Below are positions 4,447-19,893 of a DNA stretch of 64,000 nucleotides, in pieces. The position numbers were made by a program, and so were the translations under genes. Every line of letters begins with the position of its first letter. The stretch's first letter is position 1. Below the pieces are notes generated by a model. That model was given only the letters and a program-made list of their open reading frames with translations, made no database searches and was not told the origin of the DNA. This DNA comes from Streptomyces dangxiongensis. GTDB lineage: Bacteria > Actinomycetota > Actinomycetes > Streptomycetales > Streptomycetaceae. The stretch is from positions 7,502,001-7,566,000 of the forward strand of contig NZ_CP033073.1 of the NCBI RefSeq assembly GCF_003675325.1. Direction: 5' to 3'.

Positions 4447-6156
4447 ATGGACATCCTGCTGGTCGCCAGCGCGTTCAACAGCCTCTCCCAGCGCGTGTAC
4501 GCCGAACTGTCGGACCTCGGGCACCGGGTCGACGTGGTGCTCGCCGCACACGGCCCCGACCCGGTCCGCGCCGCCGTGCGCGAGTCGCGGCCGGAGCTGA
4601 TCATCGCGCCGATGCTCAGGACGGCCCTGCCCGAGGACGTGTGGCGCGACCACACCTGCCTGATCGTGCACCCGGGGCCGCCGGGCGACCGCGGCCCGTC
4701 CGCGCTGGACTGGGCCATCGCCGGCCGGGCGGAGCAGTGGGGCGTGACCGTGCTCCGGGCCGAGGCGGCGATGGACGCGGGCGCGATCTGGGCGGCCGAG
4801 CCGTTCCCCGTGCCGCCCGTCGGCAAGAGCGACCTCTACCGCAACGAGGCCTCCGACGCCGCCGTCACCGCCGTCCTGACGGCCGTACGGCGCTACGCGG
4901 AAGGCTTCTACAAGCCCCTCCCGCAGACCGACGCGTCGGTCACGGTCGGGTGGCGCGACTTCTTCCGGCAGGAGCAGCGGCGGATCGACTGGGAACGCGA
5001 CGACACCGAGACGGTCCTGCGCACGCTCCGCGGCGCCGACTCCCAGCCGGGCGTCCTGGACGAACTCCTCGGCCGCCAGGTGTTCCTGCACGGCGGGCAC
5101 CCCGAGGACCGGCTGCGCGGCCGTCCCGGCGCCCTGCTGGCCCAGCGCGCCGGAGCCGTCTGCCGGGCGACCCGGGACGGCGCGGTCTGGATCCCGGAAC
5201 TGCGTCCCCGCCGCGACTCCGGCGACCCGGCGCCCTTCCGCCGCCCGGCCGCCTCGGTGCTCGCCTCCCAGCAGCCCGGCCTCCGGCTCCCGGAGGACCC
5301 CGCCCCACCGGAACTCCCGCCCGGCCGGCGCACCTGGACCGACATCCGCTACCGGCAGCACGGTGACGTCGGCTTCCTCGCCTTCTCCTTCCCGGGCGGC
5401 GCGATGAGCACCGACCAGTGCCGCAGACTGCTCGCCGCCTACACGCAGGCCCTCGCACGCCCCACCCGCGTCCTCGTCCTCGGCGGGACCCGCGACTTCT
5501 TCTCCAACGGCATCCACCTGAACGTCATCGAGGCCGCCCCCGACCCGGCCGAGGAGTCCTGGACCAACCTCAACGCCATGGACGACCTCGTCGAGGCCGT
5601 GCTGCGCACCACCGACCGGCTGGTGGTGGCCGCCCTCGCCGGCAACGCCGCGGCCGGCGGGGCCATGCTGGCCCTCGCCGCCGACCAGGTGTGGTGCCGC
5701 ACGGGCGCCGTCCTCAACCCGCACTACCGGCGCATGGGCCTGTACGGCTCCGAGTTCTGGACCTACACCCTGCCCCGCCGCGTCGGCCCCGGCAACGCAC
5801 GCCGGCTGACCACCGAGGCGGTGCCGGTCAGCGCCGCGTCCGCCGAACGGCTCGGCCTCGTGGACCGGCTGGTGCCGGCCGCACCGCAGGACTTCGCGGC
5901 CGAGGTGCGGCGGCTGGCGACCACCCTCGCCGCCGCCCCGGACCTCGACCGGCGGCTCGCCGCCAAGGCGGCGGCCCGCGCGGCGGACGAGCGGGAACGC
6001 CCCCTGGCCGACCACCGGCAGGCGGAACTGGCCCGCATGCACGCCGTCTTCTTCGACCCCGCGGCCCCCTACCACGCCCTGCGCTCGGCCTTCGTCCGCA
6101 AGACACCGGCCGGCTCGCCCCGGCCCCTCGCCCCGGCCGCGGGAGACGTCCGGTGA
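4447..6156 (+). CDS. hypX: HypX, hydrogenase maturation protein (formyl-THF to CO)
   Basis: A 569-residue two-domain protein. Residues 1 to ~280 resemble the formyl-tetrahydrofolate transferase fold ([55 protein letters not shown]). Residues ~300-540 resemble enoyl-CoA hydratase/crotonase (RVLVLGGTRDFFSNGIHLN; NAAAGGAMLALAADQVW). HypX is known to take the formyl group of N10-formyl-THF and release CO for the active-site iron in aerobic organisms, with formyl-CoA as intermediate. It heads the plus operon and overlaps the next gene by four bases. I used the ATG at 4447; an upstream ATG at 4363 adds a basic tail not seen in the family. Confidence 0.93.
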   Translation: MDILLVASAFNSLSQRVYAELSDLGHRVDVVLAAHGPDPVRAAVRESRPELIIAPMLRTALPEDVWRDHTCLIVHPGPPGDRGPSALDWAIAGRAEQWGVTVLRAEAAMDAGAIWAAEPFPVPPVGKSDLYRNEASDAAVTAVLTAVRRYAEGFYKPLPQTDASVTVGWRDFFRQEQRRIDWERDDTETVLRTLRGADSQPGVLDELLGRQVFLHGGHPEDRLRGRPGALLAQRAGAVCRATRDGAVWIPELRPRRDSGDPAPFRRPAASVLASQQPGLRLPEDPAPPELPPGRRTWTDIRYRQHGDVGFLAFSFPGGAMSTDQCRRLLAAYTQALARPTRVLVLGGTRDFFSNGIHLNVIEAAPDPAEESWTNLNAMDDLVEAVLRTTDRLVVAALAGNAAAGGAMLALAADQVWCRTGAVLNPHYRRMGLYGSEFWTYTLPRRVGPGNARRLTTEAVPVSAASAERLGLVDRLVPAAPQDFAAEVRRLATTLAAAPDLDRRLAAKAAARAADERERPLADHRQAELARMHAVFFDPAAPYHALRSAFVRKTPAGSPRPLAPAAGDVR

Positions 6157-6731
6157 CGCCCCGGATCCTGGTGGCCGGAGTCGGCAACATCTTCCTCGCC
6201 GACGACGCCTTCGGCCCCGAGGTGATCCGCGCACTCGCACACCGCCCGCTGCCGCCCGGGGTGCGGGTGCGCGACTACGGCATCCGCGGCCTGGACCTCG
6301 CCTACGACCTGCTGGCCGGCTGTGCCACCGCCGTCCTGGTCGACGCGGCCCCGCGCGGGCACCGCCCCGGCACCCTCTCGCTGATCGAGGCCGAACCGCC
6401 CGACGGGACCGTCGCGCCCGAGGCCCACGGCATGGACCCGGCGAAGGTACTGGCCCTGGCCCGACACCTGGGCGACGAGCCCCTGCCCCGGGTCCTCGTC
6501 CTGGCCTGCGAACCCGGCGTACTGCCGGCCGGCGACGACCTCCTCGGGGGACTGAGCGCCCCGGTGCGCGAAGCGGTCGGCCGGGCCGTGGACGCGCTGC
6601 ACACGCTCGTCCCCGCCCTGCTCGACGACCCCGCCGGGTCCCTGCCCCCGTTGGGCCGCCCGGTGGAATCCGGCACCCCGCACCCGGCTGCGCTGCCCGC
6701 AACGGCGCCCGGCGGCACCCAGAATCGCTGA
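6153..6731 (+). CDS. Hydrogenase maturation protease (HyaD/HoxM type)
   Basis: A 192-residue protein beginning at a GTG that overlaps the hypX stop. The N-terminus has the M52 endopeptidase pattern: ILVAGVGNIFLADDAFGPEV, with the nickel-sensing acidic residue in the DDAFG segment, then DYGIRGLDLAYDLL and VLVDAAPRG. A histidine in the APEAHGMDPAKVL segment is the likely second metal ligand. These proteases cut the C-terminal tail from the large subunit after nickel insertion; the large subunit here has such a tail. The C-terminal ~35 residues are proline-rich and dispensable-looking. Confidence 0.92.
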   Translation: MTPRILVAGVGNIFLADDAFGPEVIRALAHRPLPPGVRVRDYGIRGLDLAYDLLAGCATAVLVDAAPRGHRPGTLSLIEAEPPDGTVAPEAHGMDPAKVLALARHLGDEPLPRVLVLACEPGVLPAGDDLLGGLSAPVREAVGRAVDALHTLVPALLDDPAGSLPPLGRPVESGTPHPAALPATAPGGTQNR

Positions 6732-10159: not shown

Positions 10160-11298
10160 AGTACATCGACGAGTTCAACGACCCCGCTCTGGCACACCGG
10201 CTGCTCGACGAGATCCGGGCCACCGCCACCCGCCCATGGGCGCTCATGGAGGTCTGCGGCGGCCAGACCCACTCCATCATCCGCCACGGGATCGACCAAC
10301 TCCTCCCAGAGAACGTGGAGTTGATTCATGGCCCCGGCTGCCCGGTGTGCGTCACGCCCCTCGACGTCATCGACAAGGCACTGGAGATCGCCGCCCGCCC
10401 CGGCGTGATCTTCTGCTCCTTCGGCGACATGCTCCGCGTGCCGGGCACCGACCGGGACCTGTTCCGCGTCAAGGGCGAGGGCGGTGACGTACGCGTGGTG
10501 TACTCCCCGCTCGACGCCCTCGACATCGCCCGCAGGAACCCGGACCGTCAGGTGGTGTTCTTCGCGATCGGCTTCGAGACGACCGCCCCCGCCAACGCCA
10601 TGGCCGTGCACCAGGCCCGCAGGCTCGGCCTCGACAACTTCAGCCTGCTGGTGTCCCACGTCCGGGTCCCCCCGGCGATCGAGGCCATCATGACCGCGCC
10701 CGGCTGCCGCGTGCAGGGCTTCCTCGCCGCCGGTCACGTGTGCAGCGTGATGGGCACCGCCGAGTACCCGGAGCTGGCCGCGAGGCACCGGGTGCCGATC
10801 GTCGTGACCGGCTTCGAGCCGCTCGACATCCTCGAAGGCATCCGCCGCGCCGTCCACCAACTGGAGCGCGGCGAGCACGGCGTGGACAACGCCTACGCCC
10901 GCGCCGTACGCGACCAGGGCAACCAGGCCGCCATGCGCATGATCGAGGAGGTCTTCGAGGTCACGGACCGCAACTGGCGCGGCATCGGCCGCATCCCGGC
11001 CAGCGGCTGGCGGCTGACCGACGCCTTCCGCGCCCACGACGCCGAGCACCGCTTCGACGTCACCGGGATCCGCACCGAGGAACCCGCCGTGTGCCGGGCC
11101 GGTGAGGTCCTGCAAGGGCTGATCAAGCCGACCGAGTGCGAGGCGTTCGGCACGGCCTGCACCCCGCGCACCCCGCTCGGCGCCACCATGGTCTCCAGCG
11201 AGGGCGCCTGCGCCGCCTACTACCTGTACCGCCGGATGAACGCCCCGGCACCACAGGGATCCCGTATCCCGCAGGAGGAGATGAACTCCGTTGGCTGA
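10156..11298 (+). CDS. hypD: HypD, Fe(CN)2CO assembly scaffold
   Basis: A 380-residue protein with the family's invariant motifs: [16 protein letters not shown] near residue 30, [11 protein letters not shown] near 58, the GFETTAPA segment, and the C-terminal cysteine set for the [4Fe-4S] cluster ([14 protein letters not shown]...[10 protein letters not shown], ~335-365). HypD supplies electrons and, with HypC, holds the iron while cyanide from HypE and CO are attached. It starts at GTG overlapping hypC and overlaps the hypE start by eight bases. Confidence 0.96.
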
Positions 11299-12418
11299 TC
11301 TCGCCACCGAAGCCGCCGAAGCCACCGAAGCCGCCGAAGCCGCCGGGGCCGCCGCGGCGGGCACCGCTGCCGTCGACCCCGCGGAGTGGACCTGCCCGGC
11401 GCCCCTGCGCGACCAGCCGGTCGTCGTCATGGGACACGGCGGAGGCGGCGCCCTGTCCGCCGAACTGATCGAACAGGTCTTCACCCCCGCGTACGGCAAC
11501 CCCACCCTGGCCGCGCTCGCCGACTCGGCCGTCCTCGACCTGGGCGGCGCCCGGCTGGCCTTCTCCACCGACTCCTACGTCGTACGCCCGCTGTTCTTCC
11601 CCGGCGGCAGCCTCGGCGACCTGGCCGTCAACGGCACCGTCAACGACCTGGCGATGAGCGGCGCCCGGCCCGCGTACCTGTCCACCGCCTTCATCCTCGA
11701 GGAGGGCGTGGAACTGGCCGTGGTGGAGCGCGTCGCACGTGCCGTCGGCGCGGCGGCCCGGGCGGCGGACGTCACCGTCGCCACCGGTGACACCAAGGTC
11801 GTGGAGTCCGGGCACGGCGACGGCGTCTACGTCACCACCGCCGGCGTCGGCCTCGTGCCGGACGGCGTCGACATCCGCCCGCAGCGCGCCCGGCCGGGCG
11901 ACGCCGTCATCGTCAGCGGCCCCATCGGCCTGCACGGCGTGGCCATCATGAGTGTGCGGGAAGGACTGGAGTTCGGGGGCGAGATCGCCTCCGACACCGC
12001 ACCCCTGGCCGGCCTCGTGGCGGCCATGCTGGCGGTCACCCCGGACATCCACGTCCTGCGCGACCCCACCCGCGGCGGCCTCGGCGCGTCCCTCAACGAG
12101 ATCGCCCGCGCCTCCGGCACCGGGGTCCGGCTGCGCGAGCGGGCCATCCCGGTCCCGGACGAGGTCGCGAACGCCTGCGGCTTCCTCGGCCTGGACCCTA
12201 TGTACGTCGCCAACGAGGGCCGGCTCGTCGCCTTCGTACCCCCGGAGCACGCCGAGGGCGTGCTGGCGGCCATGCGGGCCCACCCGCACGGCGCCGGCGC
12301 GGCCCTCATCGGCGAGTGCGTGGCCGACCACCCCGGAACGGTCGTCGTCGCCACCGGCCTCGGCGGCACCCGCGTGGTGGACCTGCCGCTGGGGGAGCAA
12401 CTGCCCCGCATCTGCTGA
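11291..12418 (+). CDS. hypE: HypE, carbamoyl dehydratase
   Basis: A 375-residue AIR-synthase-like protein. After a low-complexity N-terminus of ~30 residues (alternating TEAAEA), the family pattern begins: [44 protein letters not shown], and [10 protein letters not shown]. It ends in PRIC, whose terminal Cys carries the thiocarboxamide that HypE dehydrates to thiocyanate. The start is TTG at 11291, inside the end of hypD, with AGGAGG seven to twelve bases upstream. It closes the plus operon and faces hypA. Confidence 0.95.
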
Positions 12419-12426
12419 GCGGCCGG

Positions 12427-12476
12427 GCGGTGCCGGCCCCACCGCTCAGGGCGGGACCGGCACCGCTTCGACCCCG
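12427..12476. terminator. Hairpin between convergent hypE and hypA
   Basis: An inverted repeat with arms at 12427-12440 (gcggtgccggcccc) and 12463-12476 (gggaccggcaccgc) sits where the two hydrogenase operons meet. It overlaps the last codons of hypA. It is a likely bidirectional terminator; no U-tract is present, as is usual in streptomycetes. Confidence 0.55.
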
Positions 12477-12802
12477 GTGATCTCCAGCTCGCGCCCGCTG
12501 CGCAGCTCCCGCGAGGGCCGGTCGCAGCGCGGGCACCAGAAGAACGGCGGCATGCCGAGCGCGAACTCCTCGGCACACTCCCCGCACCAGGCCTGGGCGG
12601 GCACCCGCTCGACCACGAGCCGGGCCGCCGCGAGGGCCGTACCGTCACGGGCCACCTCGAAGGCGAAGTGCAGCGCGTCCGGCACCACACCGGCCAGCTC
12701 ACCGACGCGGACGGTCACCGACGAGACATCGCCGGCACCGTCCGCCCGGGCGATCTCCCCGGCCTGCTCCACGATCGCGGTCGCGATCGACAGCTCGTGC
12801 AC
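12446..12802 (-). CDS. hypA: HypA, hydrogenase nickel chaperone
   Basis: A 118-residue protein starting MHEL, whose His2 binds nickel. A zinc site is formed by Cys73, Cys76, Cys90 and Cys93 (WCGEC and WCPRC). It delivers nickel to the large subunit together with HypB. Unlike in most hyp operons it is separated from hypB and is the last gene of the opposite-strand structural operon, eight bases after the small membrane gene before it. Confidence 0.95.
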   Translation of the reverse strand: MHELSIATAIVEQAGEIARADGAGDVSSVTVRVGELAGVVPDALHFAFEVARDGTALAAARLVVERVPAQAWCGECAEEFALGMPPFFWCPRCDRPSRELRSGRELEITGVEAVPVPP

Positions 12803-13259: not shown

Positions 13260-13856
13260 TCACGACCGCTCGGTCAGCTCCTTGAAGAACTGTTCTACGG
13301 CCGGCCACACCCGGCCGCCACCGGACAGGCCCCGCCACTCGCGGCGGATCAGGGCCGTCATCCGGAAGCAGTCGTCGACCGGCACGATCCAGTGCTCGTC
13401 CAGGCCGCGCACGGTGTTCACCAGCAGCGCCTCGACGTCGGGTGCCAGAGAGGCGAGCAGCGGCACCCCGGCCGCCAGCCGCCGCCAGGCCGCCGTGTCC
13501 ACCTCCCACCGCATGGCCCCTGCGGGGCTCGGCCCCTGCGCGGTGACCGTGCCGTCGGAGCGTGGCACGAAGAAGACCAGCCCCACCGGGACGCCCAGCA
13601 CCGCCGTGTCGACCGGCGGCAGCCGCAGCCGGCGCCTCGGCACGAGCCGGTAGCGGCCCTCGCCGGCCCCGTCGGCGGCGAACAGCACCGAACAGAGGCG
13701 GCACACGCACCGCACCTCCGCGGCCCCGGTCTCGTACAGGTGGGCGTGTTCGGTGCCCACCGGGGCGGCGCACAGCTCGCAGACCTCGGCCTCGGCCCGC
13801 TCCGCCCGGTCGGCGGCGGAGCGGATCACCCGGGCGAGCGCGCCGTCCACGCTCAC
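13260..13856 (-). CDS. DUF5947-type hydrogenase-associated protein
   Basis: A 198-residue protein starting at a GTG that overlaps the stop of the NifU-like gene. The N-terminal part has a cysteine-rich knuckle: Cys26-x2-Cys29, then Cys50, Cys52 and Cys55 (CELC ... CVCRLC), which looks like a zinc or iron-sulfur site. The remainder is a mixed alpha/beta domain with VPVGLVFFVPRS and an aromatic segment (DEHWIVPVDDCFRMTALIRREW). From memory this matches DUF5947, which occurs beside high-affinity hydrogenases; no function is known. The operon position suggests assembly or regulation of the hydrogenase. Confidence 0.75.
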   Translation of the reverse strand: MSVDGALARVIRSAADRAERAEAEVCELCAAPVGTEHAHLYETGAAEVRCVCRLCSVLFAADGAGEGRYRLVPRRRLRLPPVDTAVLGVPVGLVFFVPRSDGTVTAQGPSPAGAMRWEVDTAAWRRLAAGVPLLASLAPDVEALLVNTVRGLDEHWIVPVDDCFRMTALIRREWRGLSGGGRVWPAVEQFFKELTERS

Positions 13857-14416
13857 GGCGTCTCCTGGGCCACGGGCCGGCGTCGGATGCTGGTCAGCGG
13901 CACGAACGCGGGGGCCGTCACGCGTTCGGGGGCAGCCTCCACCGTCTCCACGGAGGTCAGTTCGGGGGCGACGGCCAGCACCGCCGCCCGGACCGCCTCG
14001 GTGACGTCCGAGGAGCCGCCGCCGCTGCCGCAGCCGGAACCGCAGCCGCCACCGGTCTTCAGCCGCACCCGCGCCACCTGCCCCTCCAGGCCGGCCCACT
14101 CCAGTTCGCCGCCGCGCTCGCGCACCGCCGGCCGCAGCTTCTCCACCGCGCGGGCGGCCCGGCGCTCGGGCGGCTCGGGGTGCATGTCGTGCAGGACCAG
14201 CAGGTGTCCGAGCAGTTCGTCCTCGGCGAGCCGCTCCCGCAGCGGGCCCTCGGCGTGATCCAGCACCCGGGCGAGCGCCTCGCCGTAGACCTCGCTCAGC
14301 AGCGCCACCGCCTCCAGCGCCGGGCCGGGCGCGGCCTCCAGCCCGGCCAGCACCTCGTCCAGGCGGGCGAGCCGCACCTCCACCGCAGGGTCCGCGAGCC
14401 GCGCGGCGTCAGCCAT
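13853..14416 (-). CDS. NifU-domain protein with altered cysteine motif
   Basis: A 187-residue protein. Residues 1 to ~80 are helical, and residues ~85-160 resemble the C-terminal NifU domain (VEKLRPAVRERGGELEW; ARVRLKTGGG; DVTEAVRAAVLAVAPEL). The canonical CxxC cluster site (usually C-x-S-C-P) is replaced by Cys125-Gly-Ser-Gly-Cys129, a CxxxC spacing within a Gly/Ser-rich loop. NifU domains hold and pass on Fe-S clusters, and the small subunit next door needs three clusters. It overlaps the large-subunit gene by eight bases and the next gene by four. Confidence 0.8.
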   Translation of the reverse strand: MADAARLADPAVEVRLARLDEVLAGLEAAPGPALEAVALLSEVYGEALARVLDHAEGPLRERLAEDELLGHLLVLHDMHPEPPERRAARAVEKLRPAVRERGGELEWAGLEGQVARVRLKTGGGCGSGCGSGGGSSDVTEAVRAAVLAVAPELTSVETVEAAPERVTAPAFVPLTSIRRRPVAQETP

Positions 14417-16202
14417 GGTCGGCTCCGTACGTCGGCGAGTGCACGGTGGTCAGGGTCTTGCCCTTGCCCATGTACATGTGGACGCCGCACGGCAGACAGG
14501 GGTCGAAACTGCGCACGGTGCGCATGATGTCGACGCCCTTGAAGTCGTCGGGCCCGTTCTCCTCGAAGATCGGCTGGCCCTGGACGGCGTCCTCGTAGGG
14601 GCCCGGGGTGCCGTAGATGTCGCGGGGGCTGGCGTTCCACGGGGTCGGCGGGTACGGGTGGTAGTTGGCGATCTTCTTGTCGCGGATCACCAGGTGGTGC
14701 GAGAGGACCCCGCGCACCGCCTCGTGGAAGCCGCAGCCGATGGCCTCGTCCGGCACCTCGAAGTTCTCGTACACCTTCGTGTCGCCGCTGCGGAGCATCT
14801 GCATCGCCTCCTCCAGGAACTGGAGGGCCATGGCGGCGGCGTAGGCGATGAAGTACGGCCGGGCGCGGTCCCGTTCGAGGGTGTTGCTCCACTTCGGGAT
14901 GCGCCACTCCAGGGTCGTCTCCGGCAGCTTCTCGCCCTTGGGCAGGGTGATGCGGATACCGCCGCCGGTCGCCTTGACGTACGGGGTGTCGACCAGGCCG
15001 CTCAGCGCGGTCGACCAGAGCCGGGCGAGGGGCCCGCCGCCGGTGTCCAGGGCGAGGTGCTCGCCGGTCTGCCGGTGGTACCAGCGGGGGCTCATCACCC
15101 AGCTGTAGTTGCCGTCGAACTCCCGCTTCTGCGGCACCGGGACCGTGGTCTGGTTCCACGGGTGGCGCATGTCGACGGGGTTGCCGAGCGGGTCGTGGGT
15201 GACGAACGGCTCCTCGTTGACCCAGTCCTCGTAGAACGAGCTGCCCAGCATGATGCGCAGGCCCAGATTGATGTCGACCAGGTTGTTGGTGACGAGCTCG
15301 CCGTCCACGATGATGCCCGGGGTGACGTACATAGCCCGGCCCCACTCGTTCATCGTCGCGTAGCGGTAGTCGACGACGTCCGGGTTCTGGAAGGCACCCC
15401 AGCAGCCGAGCATGATGCGGCGTCTGCCGACCTCCTCGTAGCCGGGCAGGGCCTCGTAGAAGAAGTCGAAGACGTCGTCGTTCATCGCCACCGCCTTCTT
15501 GATGAAGTCGATGACGCGCATCAGCCGGCTGAGGTAGTCGGTGAAGGTGCTCGGCTGCGGCATCGTGCCGACCCCGCCCGGGTACAGCGTGGAGGGGTGC
15601 ACATGCCGGCCCTCCATCAGGCAGAACATCTCCCGGGTGATCCGGCTGACCTTCAGCGCCTCCTTGTAGACCTCGCCCTCGAAGGGGTTGAAGGCCTTCA
15701 TGATGTCGGCGACGGTCCGGTAGCCGTGGATGTCCCCGCGGGGCGCGTCGGTGCGCTCGGCGCGGGCCAGGACCCCGGGGTTGGTGGCCTTGACCATCGC
15801 CTCGCAGAAGTCCACGAAGACGAGGTTGTCCTGGAAGATCGTGTGGTCGAAGATGTACTCCGCGGCCTCGCCGAGGTTGGTGATGTGCTCGGCCAGTTTG
15901 GGCGGCTTGACGCCGTAGGCCATCTGCTGGGCGTAGTTGGAGCAGGTGGTGTGGTTGTCGCCGCAGATGCCGCAGATCCGCGAGGTGATGAACCCGGCGT
16001 CCCGCGGGTCCTTGCCCTTCATGAACACCGAATAGCCGCGGAACAGCGACGAGGTGCTGTGGCACTCCACGACTTCCTGATTGGCGAAGTCGATCTTCGT
16101 GTAGATCCCCAGGTTGCCGATGATCCGGGTGATCGGATCCCAGGACATGTCCACGATCTGGGCGGGTTTGCGTCCTGTGGGCCGGGACTCGGTGGTGGTC
16201 AT
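14409..16202 (-). CDS. hhyL: [NiFe]-hydrogenase large subunit, group 1h type
   Basis: A 597-residue catalytic subunit that oxidises H2 at a Ni-Fe(CN)2CO centre. The L1 motif is RICGICGDNH (Cys77, Cys80, His84) and the L2 motif is DPCLPCGVH (Cys569, Cys572, His575); these four cysteines bind Ni and Fe. A 22-residue tail follows His575, the expected target of the maturation protease. Strings such as SWDPITRIIGNLGIYTKIDF and CHSTSSLFRGYSVFMKGKD fit actinobacterial high-affinity enzymes that scavenge atmospheric H2. It lies 94 bases after the small-subunit gene. GAGGGG lies about 12 bases before the ATG. Confidence 0.96.
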   Translation of the reverse strand: MTTTESRPTGRKPAQIVDMSWDPITRIIGNLGIYTKIDFANQEVVECHSTSSLFRGYSVFMKGKDPRDAGFITSRICGICGDNHTTCSNYAQQMAYGVKPPKLAEHITNLGEAAEYIFDHTIFQDNLVFVDFCEAMVKATNPGVLARAERTDAPRGDIHGYRTVADIMKAFNPFEGEVYKEALKVSRITREMFCLMEGRHVHPSTLYPGGVGTMPQPSTFTDYLSRLMRVIDFIKKAVAMNDDVFDFFYEALPGYEEVGRRRIMLGCWGAFQNPDVVDYRYATMNEWGRAMYVTPGIIVDGELVTNNLVDINLGLRIMLGSSFYEDWVNEEPFVTHDPLGNPVDMRHPWNQTTVPVPQKREFDGNYSWVMSPRWYHRQTGEHLALDTGGGPLARLWSTALSGLVDTPYVKATGGGIRITLPKGEKLPETTLEWRIPKWSNTLERDRARPYFIAYAAAMALQFLEEAMQMLRSGDTKVYENFEVPDEAIGCGFHEAVRGVLSHHLVIRDKKIANYHPYPPTPWNASPRDIYGTPGPYEDAVQGQPIFEENGPDDFKGVDIMRTVRSFDPCLPCGVHMYMGKGKTLTTVHSPTYGADHG

Positions 16203-16296: not shown

Positions 16297-17385
16297 TCAC
16301 GCGCGCCAGTGCGGGTCGTAACCGCTGGTCAGCTTCTCCTTGTTGTGACGCCACCTGGGCTCGTGGTTCACCATGTCGTTGGTCATGCCGCGCAGCCGGC
16401 GGATGACCGCCCCGTACGGCTTGATCACCAACGACGACAAGGTGCCGCCCGGAGGTTCGTCCATGAACGGCATGAAGGCGTCGGGGAAGCTCGGCATGGT
16501 GCAGCCGATGCAGATGCCGCCGACGTTCGGGCAGCCGCCGACGCCGCCCATCCAGCCGCGCTTGGGCACGTTGCAGTTGACGACCGGACCCCAGCAGCCG
16601 ATCTTCACCTGGCACTTGGGGGAGTTGTAGTCCCTGGAGAAGTCGGCCTGCTCGTAGTACGCGGCCCGGTCGCAGCCCTCGTGCACGGTCTTGCCGAACA
16701 GCCACTGCGGTCGCAGCATGTGGTCCAGCGGCGGCGGGGGAGCGGCACCGGCCGCGTGCTGGAGCGTCCAGACCAGGGTCTCCATGAAGTTCTCCGGCTG
16801 GATGGGACAGCCGGGCACGTTGACGATCGGGAGCCCCGACCGGGCCTTGAAGTCCCAGCCCAGGTAGTCCGCGAGCCCCATGCAGCCGGTCGGGTTGCCG
16901 GCCATGGCGTGGATGCCGCCGAACGTCGCACAGGTCCCGGCCGCGATCACCGCCCAGGCCTTGGGCGCCAGTTGGTCGATCCACCAGTTCAGCGTCTGCG
17001 GCTGACCGGTCTCCGGGTCGTTGCCGAACGACGTCCAGTAGCCGTCGCCCTCGATGATGTTCTGGTTCGGGACCGAGCCCTCGATGACGAGGATGAACGG
17101 CTCCAGTTCGCCGCGGGCCGCCTCCCGGTACGGGGCCAGGAAGTCCTCCCCGCCCAGGCTGGGCGAGAGGACCTTGTTGACGAGGATCACCCTCGGCAGG
17201 CCCGGGATCAGCCCGAGCACCACGTCCTCGATGGACGGCTGCCCCGCCGCGGTCAGCGACACGGTGTCGCCGTCGCAGCTCATCCCCTCCGAGATCCACA
17301 GGATGGTGATCTCGTCGAAGCCCTCCCGCGCCTCGGCCCTGCTGGGCTCGCCAAGCACTTCGGTCGTACCGCTCTGTGTGGTCAT
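16297..17385 (-). CDS. hhyS: [NiFe]-hydrogenase small subunit, group 1h type
   Basis: A 362-residue electron-transfer subunit. There is no twin-arginine signal peptide and no C-terminal membrane helix, so the enzyme should be cytoplasmic. The proximal-cluster motif, normally CxGC, reads Cys37-Asp38-Gly39-Asp40, so an Asp replaces a Cys. That matches the 3Cys-1Asp proximal cluster known from the structure of the Ralstonia eutropha actinobacterial-type hydrogenase. The remaining Cys ligands are in AAGTCATFGG, NVPGCPIQ, HEGCDRAAYY, KCQVKIGCWGPVVNC and GGCPNVGGICIGC. ATG 17385 follows GGAGGCCGCAGAC. Confidence 0.96.
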   Translation of the reverse strand: MTTQSGTTEVLGEPSRAEAREGFDEITILWISEGMSCDGDTVSLTAAGQPSIEDVVLGLIPGLPRVILVNKVLSPSLGGEDFLAPYREAARGELEPFILVIEGSVPNQNIIEGDGYWTSFGNDPETGQPQTLNWWIDQLAPKAWAVIAAGTCATFGGIHAMAGNPTGCMGLADYLGWDFKARSGLPIVNVPGCPIQPENFMETLVWTLQHAAGAAPPPPLDHMLRPQWLFGKTVHEGCDRAAYYEQADFSRDYNSPKCQVKIGCWGPVVNCNVPKRGWMGGVGGCPNVGGICIGCTMPSFPDAFMPFMDEPPGGTLSSLVIKPYGAVIRRLRGMTNDMVNHEPRWRHNKEKLTSGYDPHWRA

Positions 17386-17505: not shown

Positions 17506-19005
17506 TCACGGGCACGCATCGGACCATCCGCTCTCCGGCCGCCGGTCGGCGGGCCGCGCGGGCCGTGGGGCCTGCGGCCGGGGCGGTCCGGGCGGGCCCG
17601 GTGCGCCGGCGGTGCCGAGCGGCTCCAGCTCCTCGGGCCGGAAGTAGTGGAACCGGCCGTACCAGCCGTGCAGTTCGGCGGCGGGATCGTCGTCCACGGT
17701 GACGGCCAGGTGGACGCTGCCGTCCACGTCGTGGAAGACCGCGGCGACCTGCGCGGTCCGCCCCTGAAGGAACATGTCCTGGGCGTCGGCGCCCCGCCCG
17801 CGCGGGCGCAGCCGCACCCGGCTGCCGCCGCCCACGGGCACCCCGCCGACCGGCACGGTGTCCGTCGTCGGGGACAGTCCGTCGTCGCCGTGCTCCTGCC
17901 ACCAGGCGGGCCGGCCGGAGTCCGGCGCCCGCGCGGGTGCCAGGGAGCGGATGGTGCCGTGCAGCCGGGCGAAGACCTCCTGGGGCATGGTGTCGACGCG
18001 GTCCAGGATCCGGGCGGCCCGTGGGTCGGTGGCCCGGGCCTCGGCCTTCTCCTCGTCGGTCAGCAGCATCGTGCGGAGGGTGAGGATCTCGTCGATCTCC
18101 GCGGCGTCGTGCAGGTCGCCGGGGCTCTCGGGCGCCACCTGCGGATGGTCCGGGAGGATGATCGGCGCGGAGAGCAGGTAGGCGCCCGTCGCCCCGTCGC
18201 CGTCCGCGGACGCCGGCGGTGCCCCGCCGAGCACGGGGAACGTGAACGCGTTGCGGCAGCCCTTCACGTGTTCCGCGAGCGCGGCGGGCGGATCGATCGG
18301 CGATACGAACTCCACCGCGTCCCCGGCGAGGAGCGTGTGGGTGGCGAGCAGCGCCTGCCCCAGCACCGCACCCCGCGGGGCCTGCGGGTCCGGGGCGTCG
18401 GCGGTGTTCTCGGTGCGTACGCGCAGCCGGTACAGCCCCGGCCCGAGCGGTTCGGCGAGGACCGTCGTCCCGGCCCGCACCTCCCGTCGCCGCCGCACCG
18501 TCCGCCCGGCTCCCGACGGCAACGGCTCGTACTCCGCACCTGCCGGCGCTCCCACGGGCACGGTCCGCCCGCCGCGCGACAGCTCGGCCAGCGGGAGCAC
18601 CAGCTCGGTCTCGCGGGGCACCGCCTCCTCGAACGACAGGTGGGTGACGCCGTCGGCCGTCCGCAGCGACTGGACCGGGCGGTGCCGCCCGTCGCCGTCC
18701 GCGGCCTCCACCTGCTTGTGCTGCATCTGGAGGTAGCGCACCCGCACCCGTACGACGGCGTCCTCGCCGTGGACCCGCAGCACGCACTCGGTCCGCTGGT
18801 ACCACGAGTCGGCGGAGCCGGAGATCCCCGGCGTGACCGGACCGTCCCGCTCCACCCAGTTCCGGGGCAGCAGCACCCCGAACTGCCAGCGGACCCGGTT
18901 CTTCGCCGAGGAGCGGCGGTAGGGATAGAGCAGATAGCCCTCGTACAGCACGGCGTCCGCCACGGCACTGAGCTGCTCACAGCCCTCGCCGACCCTGTTG
19001 GCCAT
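17506..19005 (-). CDS. 499-residue orphan protein heading the hydrogenase structural operon
   Basis: The first gene of the minus operon, 120 bases before hhyS, with a strong GGTGAGGAGAGGGC site. The protein has no signal peptide, no membrane helix and no cysteine cluster (single Cys at ~9 and a few others). The N-terminal ~220 residues look beta-rich (YEGYLLYPYRRSSAKNRVRW; LRVHGEDAVVRVRVRYLQMQ). The middle holds the motif HVKGCRNAFTFPVLG and a helical stretch (LHDAAEIDEILTLRTMLLTDEEKAEA). The C-terminus has a conserved-looking beta segment (AQDMFLQGRTAQVAAVF; YGRFHYFRPEELEPLG) followed by a proline-rich tail. I know of similar large hypotheticals next to group 1h hydrogenases but not a function. 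Confidence 0.8.
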   Translation of the reverse strand: MANRVGEGCEQLSAVADAVLYEGYLLYPYRRSSAKNRVRWQFGVLLPRNWVERDGPVTPGISGSADSWYQRTECVLRVHGEDAVVRVRVRYLQMQHKQVEAADGDGRHRPVQSLRTADGVTHLSFEEAVPRETELVLPLAELSRGGRTVPVGAPAGAEYEPLPSGAGRTVRRRREVRAGTTVLAEPLGPGLYRLRVRTENTADAPDPQAPRGAVLGQALLATHTLLAGDAVEFVSPIDPPAALAEHVKGCRNAFTFPVLGGAPPASADGDGATGAYLLSAPIILPDHPQVAPESPGDLHDAAEIDEILTLRTMLLTDEEKAEARATDPRAARILDRVDTMPQEVFARLHGTIRSLAPARAPDSGRPAWWQEHGDDGLSPTTDTVPVGGVPVGGGSRVRLRPRGRGADAQDMFLQGRTAQVAAVFHDVDGSVHLAVTVDDDPAAELHGWYGRFHYFRPEELEPLGTAGAPGPPGPPRPQAPRPARPADRRPESGWSDACP

Positions 19006-19146
19006 GCCCTCTCCTCACCGGAGCGTCCGCGGTTCTCCCCCCCACGGTCACATCCGTCGCGCCCGCCCGCCCCTCAGGCGCACCGTCATTGCGCCGGACA
19101 GGGGAGGGCACGCGCCGTGACCGCCACGCGGCGGTGGGTCAGCGGG

Positions 19147-19257
19147 GCCGAGATGGCGCGGGCGCGGCGGGGCAGGGGGGAGCCTGAGGTGGCGGGGGCG
19201 CAGCGGGAAAGGGGCGCCGAGGTGGCGCGGGCGCGGGCGCGGCGGGGCAGGGGGGCG
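19147..19257. repeat. Imperfect GC-only tandem repeat, three units
   Basis: Three related units of 33-42 bases lie head to tail: 19147-19180, 19182-19215 and 19216-19257. They share the core gccgag-tggcgcgggcg followed by cggcggggcagggggg. They fill most of the 256-base gap between the start of the 499-residue gene and the 3' end of the broken gene next to it. They lie upstream of the hydrogenase structural operon. Confidence 0.6.
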
Positions 19258-19261
19258 AGGT

Positions 19262-19893
19262 TCAGCGGAGCAGCAGGTAGTGGGTGACGAGGGACTGCGC
19301 CCGGTCCGCGCCGATGCCCAGGGCCCTGCCGAGGGCCTCCCACCGCCGGTCCGGGTCCTCCTCGATCATGCAGGCCGCCTCCCGGCCGGCGCGCCGGGTC
19401 AGGCGGTCCAGCGCGACGACGGCCCGCAGGGCGGCGGCCGGCGCGTCCTCGGGGCCAGCGCGAACAGCCTGTCCTCCACGGCGTTCAGCAGTTGGGCCAG
19501 CTCGTCCGGCAGCGGCACCGTCTGCCGCTCCACCGTACGGATGTGCTCGCTCCAGTCCCGGCGCGCACGCGAGACGTCCAGGTCCTCCAGGCCGTCCCCG
19601 GCCAGTTCCTCCCACGGGACCGGCGCGCTCGGACCGCGCCAGCCGCAGGTGCACGAGGCGCGCACCGCCGCCGCCTTCGGGCGGGTCATGCTGCCGTCGT
19701 ACGCCCACCACTCGCTGGTCGCGTACATCTCGGCGCCGCTGCCGATGTCGAAACAGGCGGGCTTCGGTTCGCTGCCGTCGGCCAGGACGGCACCCACGAT
19801 GCCCTCGTGCGACTCCCCGAACTCCTCGGTCGTCCACCCCACGGCCGTCTCCCTCCCCTCGCCGGGCTTCGTCCTGCCCATCATCGGCGACAC
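19262..19893 (-). pseudogene. Frameshifted orphan gene (single-base deletion)
   Basis: Two frames join to give one plausible ~210-residue protein. The upstream frame begins at 19893 and includes a Cys-Gly-Trp motif (ASCTCGWRGPSAPVPWEEL), ending its sensible part at NAVEDRLFALAP. The downstream frame continues EDAPAAALRAVVALDRLTRR and ends in AQSLVTHYLLLR at 19262. The switch falls at a run of four G (plus strand 19451-19454); one more base there restores a single frame. The domain is unknown to me. It may be a true frameshift or a homopolymer undercall. Confidence 0.6.

Follow-up and report, generated by a model that had tools for sequence, protein, structure and literature searches.

We analysed a gene for a protein of 499 residues which stands directly ahead of the structural genes of a group 1h (formerly group 5) [NiFe]-hydrogenase in a stretch of 64,000 nucleotides from Streptomyces dangxiongensis (contig NZ_CP033073.1, positions 7,502,001 to 7,566,000 of the forward strand; hereafter the window, to which all positions refer). 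As judged from homology and from linkage to group 1h enzymes, the protein belongs to the PHG069 family, and we propose, with a probability of about one half, that it serves the group 1h hydrogenase as a dedicated assembly (maturation) scaffold in the cytoplasm. An earlier note made from the sequence alone had described it as an orphan at the head of the operon which probably acts with the enzyme and whose place resembles that of HucM in Mycobacterium smegmatis. The gene proved to be real and the protein no orphan; its association with the enzyme was supported, its likeness to HucM was not.

17506..19005, minus strand: group 1h hydrogenase accessory protein of the PHG069 family, 499 residues (ATG open reading frame, homology)
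19006..19018, minus strand: ribosome-binding site GTGAGGAGAGGGC, read ahead of the ATG of the 499-residue gene

Start codon, ribosome-binding site and GC content by codon position identify this open reading frame (ORF) as a real gene. The ribosome-binding site is strong, as noted earlier, and contains GAGGAG; the GC content at third codon positions is 0.94. The top hydropathy over 19 residues is 1.26, so that no membrane helix is expected, again in line with the first description.

Family membership and linkage to the group 1h enzyme

In a database search with the 499-residue protein, 7998 of the 8000 scored candidates were homologous at an expectation value (E) of 0.001, which disposes of the label orphan. 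The named organisms among the 120 matches listed were Streptomyces, and in a second search with the homologue from Cupriavidus necator as query the named matches among those listed belonged mostly to Burkholderiales. By tblastn the family was found in 12 plasmid records, including C. necator pHG1, a plasmid of M. intracellulare and Methylocystis parvus. The counterpart in C. necator H16 (WP_011153991.1, pHG1) aligned with residues 10-464 of the 499-residue protein at 36% identity, covering 91% of the query (E 4e-51). Its operon has the order HofK, HofG, NifU-like protein, DUF5947, DUF6084, family member, protease. Published annotation gives hofK as PHG064, hofG as PHG065, PHG066-069 as genes of unknown function and PHG070 as the protease (PMC4377017), and as the gene order matches this numbering, we identify the family with PHG069. 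The window gene does not lie between DUF6084 and the protease; this placement is not needed for membership, because the order with the gene at the head is a derived state of a whole clade (see below).

The absence of a recognisable domain, as claimed before, held for Pfam and NCBIfam, neither of which gave a family over cut-off for the 499-residue protein, and failed for the predicted structure, which has two domains. Nothing convincing emerged from Pfam across 78 family members (best E 0.0014) or from NCBIfam across 30 (best E 0.0057), and no sequence relatives were found in the Protein Data Bank (best E 0.34 with the single sequence and 1.2 with a profile).

Among 61 related genomes the family occurs in 29, and the same 29 carry a group 1h-like large subunit HhyL (68-100% identity, E <1e-290); three further genomes of this set have distant hydrogenase matches only and lack the family. 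Homologues mostly without hydrogenase genes, an outcome which the earlier note had envisaged, were thus not what we found (co-occurrence in 29 of 29). In a sample of 296 genomes of the phylum, for each of which the best 4-5 candidates were scored, HhyL was matched at E 1e-50 in 40 genomes, in 27 of them with at least 60% identity and in 13 with 46% or less. The family was present in 28 genomes, namely 25 of the 27 group 1h-like ones, one of the 13 distant ones (G273) and two others. In the two group 1h-like genomes where it was missed, the contig ends in DUF6084 (G099) or the HhyL match holds stops (G241), and the C-terminal domain was not found elsewhere in either. In the three carriers lacking such an HhyL (G246, G273, G347) the gene lies behind DUF6084, close to a contig end. 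A weak match to the C-terminal domain in another genome (G197, C83) was dropped as chance; the region holds an ORF recognised as SRP54-like.

HhyS or HhyL lies beside the gene in 75 of 80 named loci, which are the best 80 of 569, biased to close relatives and nearly all actinobacterial; the remaining five are cut off by a contig end or by an N-gap. Acidobacteria, Chloroflexi and Verrucomicrobia lay outside the searches. Judged by its distribution, the 499-residue protein goes with the group 1h enzyme, as had been supposed at first sight.

Predicted domain organisation

17941..19005, minus strand: N-terminal domain, residues 1-355 (predicted model; predicted template modelling score, pTM, 0.88)
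17611..17868, minus strand: C-terminal domain, SH3-like barrel, residues 380-465 (predicted structure; separate ORF in some genomes)

The AlphaFold2 model has a mean predicted local distance difference test score (pLDDT) of 85 for the whole protein and of 87 for the N-terminal domain, with low confidence in a linker near residues 350-375 and in the tail. The N-terminal domain is predicted to consist of an N-terminal helix, long β-sheets (69-280) and helices at 303-348; apart from one helix of 21 residues at its start, four of 7-11 residues at its end and a few shorter ones, it is β-structure.

In the predicted model, residues 21-283 match the N-terminal chassis fold of DrmA (7s9v/7s9w), the helicase of the DISARM phage-defence system. 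The PADLOC DrmA profile PDLC02573 matched 48 of 78 family members at E 0.01, the window protein itself not being among them, and DrmA profiles of our own construction matched 0 of 78. No DrmA match was found in the window's own genome at E 0.001. A comparison with a viral structure library gave nothing useful. The DISARM structure paper describes the N-terminal half of DrmA as a structural chassis that bears an interface for a partner, and it reported no structural relatives of DrmA other than those of its RecA domains (PMC9142583). A literature search pairing PHG069 or DrmA with hydrogenase ranked first no paper that combined three of its four terms, which leaves room for papers on DrmA and hydrogenase alone. 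We tentatively suggest that the DrmA chassis and the largest among the conserved accessory proteins of atmospheric-H2 hydrogenases may be one fold with two jobs, holding helicase motors in the one case and a [NiFe]-hydrogenase during assembly in the other.

A domain in common with a DNA helicase could also mean that the protein binds nucleic acid or acts as a regulator, and the fold and profile matches to DrmA are what speaks for this. We regard it as quite improbable: in DrmA, the DNA sits between DrmB and the RecA domains (PMC9142583), and the DrmA trigger loop (176-232), which is within the matched part, would by position correspond to only about 20 residues of the model. Tandem RecA helicase domains are lacking, since Pfam reported no helicase family in this protein of 499 residues; its neighbours are hydrogenase genes, with none of the DISARM genes (DrmB, DrmC, methyltransferase) among them, and its linkage to one enzyme class is strict. 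A DISARM-like locus was met in another genome (G443, L186:3152-8500, minus strand), with a DrmA-type helicase of 1173 residues beside a cysteine-rich DrmB-like protein of 604 residues and a methyltransferase-like ORF, both assigned by recognition.

In fold, the C-terminal barrel is similar to PetP and further barrels of electron transport, and equally to ribosomal and chromatin barrels. Because of these ties with unrelated barrels the likeness decides nothing on function, and Pfam provided no sequence family for the barrel. Conserved cysteines are limited to C74 (66 of 78 members) and C250 (77 of 78), and an iron-sulfur electron carrier was rejected, as no conserved cysteine cluster motif exists among the 78 members. 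The NifU-like protein of the C. necator group 1h operon (L048:7124-7702) contains only one cysteine and lacks CxxC, whereas the window copy has CGSGC; an iron-sulfur role of this NifU-like protein can hardly be maintained for every group 1h operon.

The C-terminal domain is separable. In seven genomes of one family the N-terminal protein has 328-339 residues and the final hundred residues form a separate ORF, which lies directly ahead of the protease gene in four of the seven, the four whose order was read. In Prauserella (L123, L147) the N-terminal part heads the operon, and the C-terminal domain is encoded at the other end, beyond DUF5947, by an ORF of its own that overlaps the start of a HycI protease. 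With a stand-alone C-terminal protein as query, 1284 of 1296 candidates of similar size were relatives.

In three Streptomyces loci (L107, L115, L131) the gene at the head of the operon encodes the N-terminal domain alone. The same genomes carry a second family member of the type placed behind DUF6084 (L148, L149, L150), located beside HycI protease and HypA and spanning residues 15-463; the L148 copy lacks about 80 internal residues. In view of this second member a reading of the C-terminal domain as a mere remnant elsewhere was dropped, and these genomes are silent on domains acting in trans.

Locus organisation and movement of the gene

16297..17385, minus strand: HhyS, group 1h small subunit (Pfam; best solved match HofK of C. 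necator, 5aa5, E 3e-161)
14409..16202, minus strand: HhyL, group 1h large subunit (Pfam)
13853..14416, minus strand: NifU-like protein, short HhyE-like (Pfam)
13260..14099, minus strand: DUF5947 protein (Pfam; ORF span, the gene start is probably inside it)
12446..12802, minus strand: HypA (Pfam, NCBIfam)
11291..12418, plus strand: HypE, end of the facing maturation cluster (Pfam, NCBIfam)
6219..6599, plus strand: HycI-type hydrogenase maturation protease domain, in ORF 5418-6731 (facing cluster)

On the minus strand of the window the 499-residue gene is followed by HhyS, HhyL, the NifU-like protein, DUF5947 and HypA. The facing plus-strand cluster encodes a formyl-transferase/enoyl-CoA-hydratase protein, which we take to be HypX-like, the HycI-type protease, HypB, HypF, HypC, HypD and HypE. 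It is plausible that the 499-residue gene is the first of its transcript; a simple scan detected neither a promoter nor a terminator. Further upstream, an ORF of 164 residues (19399-19893, minus strand) ends 393 bases short of the 499-residue ATG; its counterpart in S. echinatus shows about 80% identity, but no more than three of 80 related loci contain a homologue. A repetitive GC-rich stretch (19150-19260) separates it from the operon, and smaller mechanical ORFs lie between the two genes, e.g. 19086-19343 in repetitive sequence.

Three orders occur among the loci. In the usual one, HhyS-HhyL-NifU-DUF5947-DUF6084 is followed by the PHG069 family gene and the protease; in the second, the family gene and the protease precede HhyS-HhyL-NifU-DUF5947; in the third, which includes the window, the family gene precedes HhyS-HhyL-NifU-DUF5947-HypA. 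The protease, which lies in the facing cluster of the window, thus adjoins the homologue of the 499-residue gene in many other genomes. DUF6084 is present in 18 of the 29 carriers and in 10 of the 80 named loci; it is missing in 11 carriers, among them the window's own genome, where it was not found at all. A literature search on DUF6084 listed a single paper, on an unrelated matter.

A tree of HhyL (90 rows, quick method, supported by the Shimodaira-Hasegawa-like approximate likelihood ratio test only, midpoint root) separates 25 rows with the gene behind the structural genes and with DUF6084 from 65 rows with the gene ahead, by a branch with support 100, and the three order labels require three changes. 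This fits a single move ahead of hhyS together with loss of DUF6084, the protease at first staying alongside and later parting from the gene. The adjacency in two operon orders suggests that the family gene and the protease moved as a pair.

These orders bear on a function like that of HucM of the group 2a enzyme Huc, which has 188 residues and forms a coiled-coil tetramer with a stalk for quinone delivery (PMC10017518). The place before the small-subunit gene, which according to the earlier note HucM shares, does favour an oligomerisation and quinone-delivery stalk. This head place is, however, a derived state on the HhyL tree and hence no evidence for such a role; C. necator and others have the gene behind the structural genes. 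The predicted fold is β-rich and contains no long coiled coil, whereas the stalk of HucM is helical. On account of fold, size and derived position we set a HucM-like stalk aside as the least probable reading; that its size differs had already been observed.

Proposed role in hydrogenase assembly

In the mechanism that we propose, the N-terminal DrmA-chassis-like domain would take hold of a hydrogenase subunit that is still immature, by way of very conserved flexible segments at about residues 20-40 and 291-310. The C-terminal SH3-like barrel, on its disordered linker, would recruit a late maturation partner, e.g. HypA or the C-terminal protease; on completion of HhyS-HhyL the scaffold would depart. 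The N-terminal domain has a pLDDT of at least 85 in 28 of 35 blocks. Conservation is high in blocks 21-30 (0.93), 31-40 (0.73), 291-300 (0.84) and 301-310 (0.85), where pLDDT is 66-72, as expected if these modelled segments fold on a partner. Over all blocks, conservation and pLDDT are correlated with a Spearman coefficient of -0.38 (p 0.026).

An accessory subunit of the mature complex, which either scaffolds HhyS-HhyL with the NifU-like protein and the electron acceptor or serves to dock the complex at the membrane, appears rather unlikely to us but has to be weighed seriously. An assembly scaffold is favoured over it because of the conserved segments of low pLDDT, the lack of cofactor ligands and of a membrane helix, the adjacency to the protease in two orders and the C-terminal ORF beside the protease. 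The co-occurrence with HhyL and the chassis role of the N-terminal half of DrmA also speak for a scaffold. The deposited structure of the C. necator group 1h enzyme (5aa5) includes HofK, and it is not known to contain subunits other than HofK and HofG.

Several observations weigh against a scaffold. The correlation is weak and its blocks are not independent; block 281-290 is conserved (0.81) yet has a pLDDT of 91. Adjacency to the protease is equally compatible with a structural subunit, and in the window the protease sits in the facing cluster. HhyE has been argued to be an electron acceptor of the group 1h enzyme, with the PHG067 homologue as a further candidate (PMC6883350); because of these proposals the whole accessory gene set might consist of accessory subunits, although the same paper likewise allows assembly roles. 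Finally, Methylacidiphilum fumariolicum, which oxidises H2 with a group 1h enzyme, is reported to encode no homologues of the hypothetical proteins from the group 1h operon of Pyrinomonas (PMC7174314). If the PHG069 family is among those proteins, the enzyme can be made without it, and dependence on the family may therefore not hold across group 1h.

Much of the atmospheric H2 that soil takes up is attributed to high-affinity [NiFe]-hydrogenases (PMC7174314). If our proposal is true, group 1h enzymes in actinobacteria and in several proteobacteria depend on a type of assembly scaffold outside the known Hyp/Hox/Hup maturation factors. The domains, a scaffold-type fold relative, candidate binding segments and a separable domain tied to the protease turn a conserved hypothetical protein into testable statements, and the link to DrmA may serve work on phage defence by providing a structural relative outside defence.

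Comparison with known systems

That the family is conserved and unexplained was known before; new, as far as our searches show, are its domain organisation, the fold resembling DrmA, the account of how the gene changed its position, and a mechanism that can be tested. Acidobacterial genome work described three highly conserved proteins of unknown function ('HP') specific to the high-affinity hydrogenase (PMC5900883), and the hhyLS operon of Thermomicrobium carries hhaABC (PMC6776052). These are likewise conserved hypothetical proteins of group 1h operons, for which the accessible parts of the published accounts give neither domains nor a mechanism.

The closest counterpart is PHG069 of C. necator, whose operon shares its gene set with that of the window's homologues; there the gene follows DUF6084, whereas the 499-residue gene leads its operon and the protease has its place in the facing cluster. 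HucM, a helical coiled coil, differs from the β-rich domain plus SH3-like barrel predicted here. Small SH3-like proteins and domains (PetP, PsaE, FTR, nitrile hydratase beta) match the C-terminal domain in fold, tied with unrelated barrels. In contrast to DrmA of DISARM, the 499-residue protein has neither RecA helicase domains nor DISARM neighbours, and its chassis-like fold is joined to an SH3-like barrel and encoded in a hydrogenase operon.
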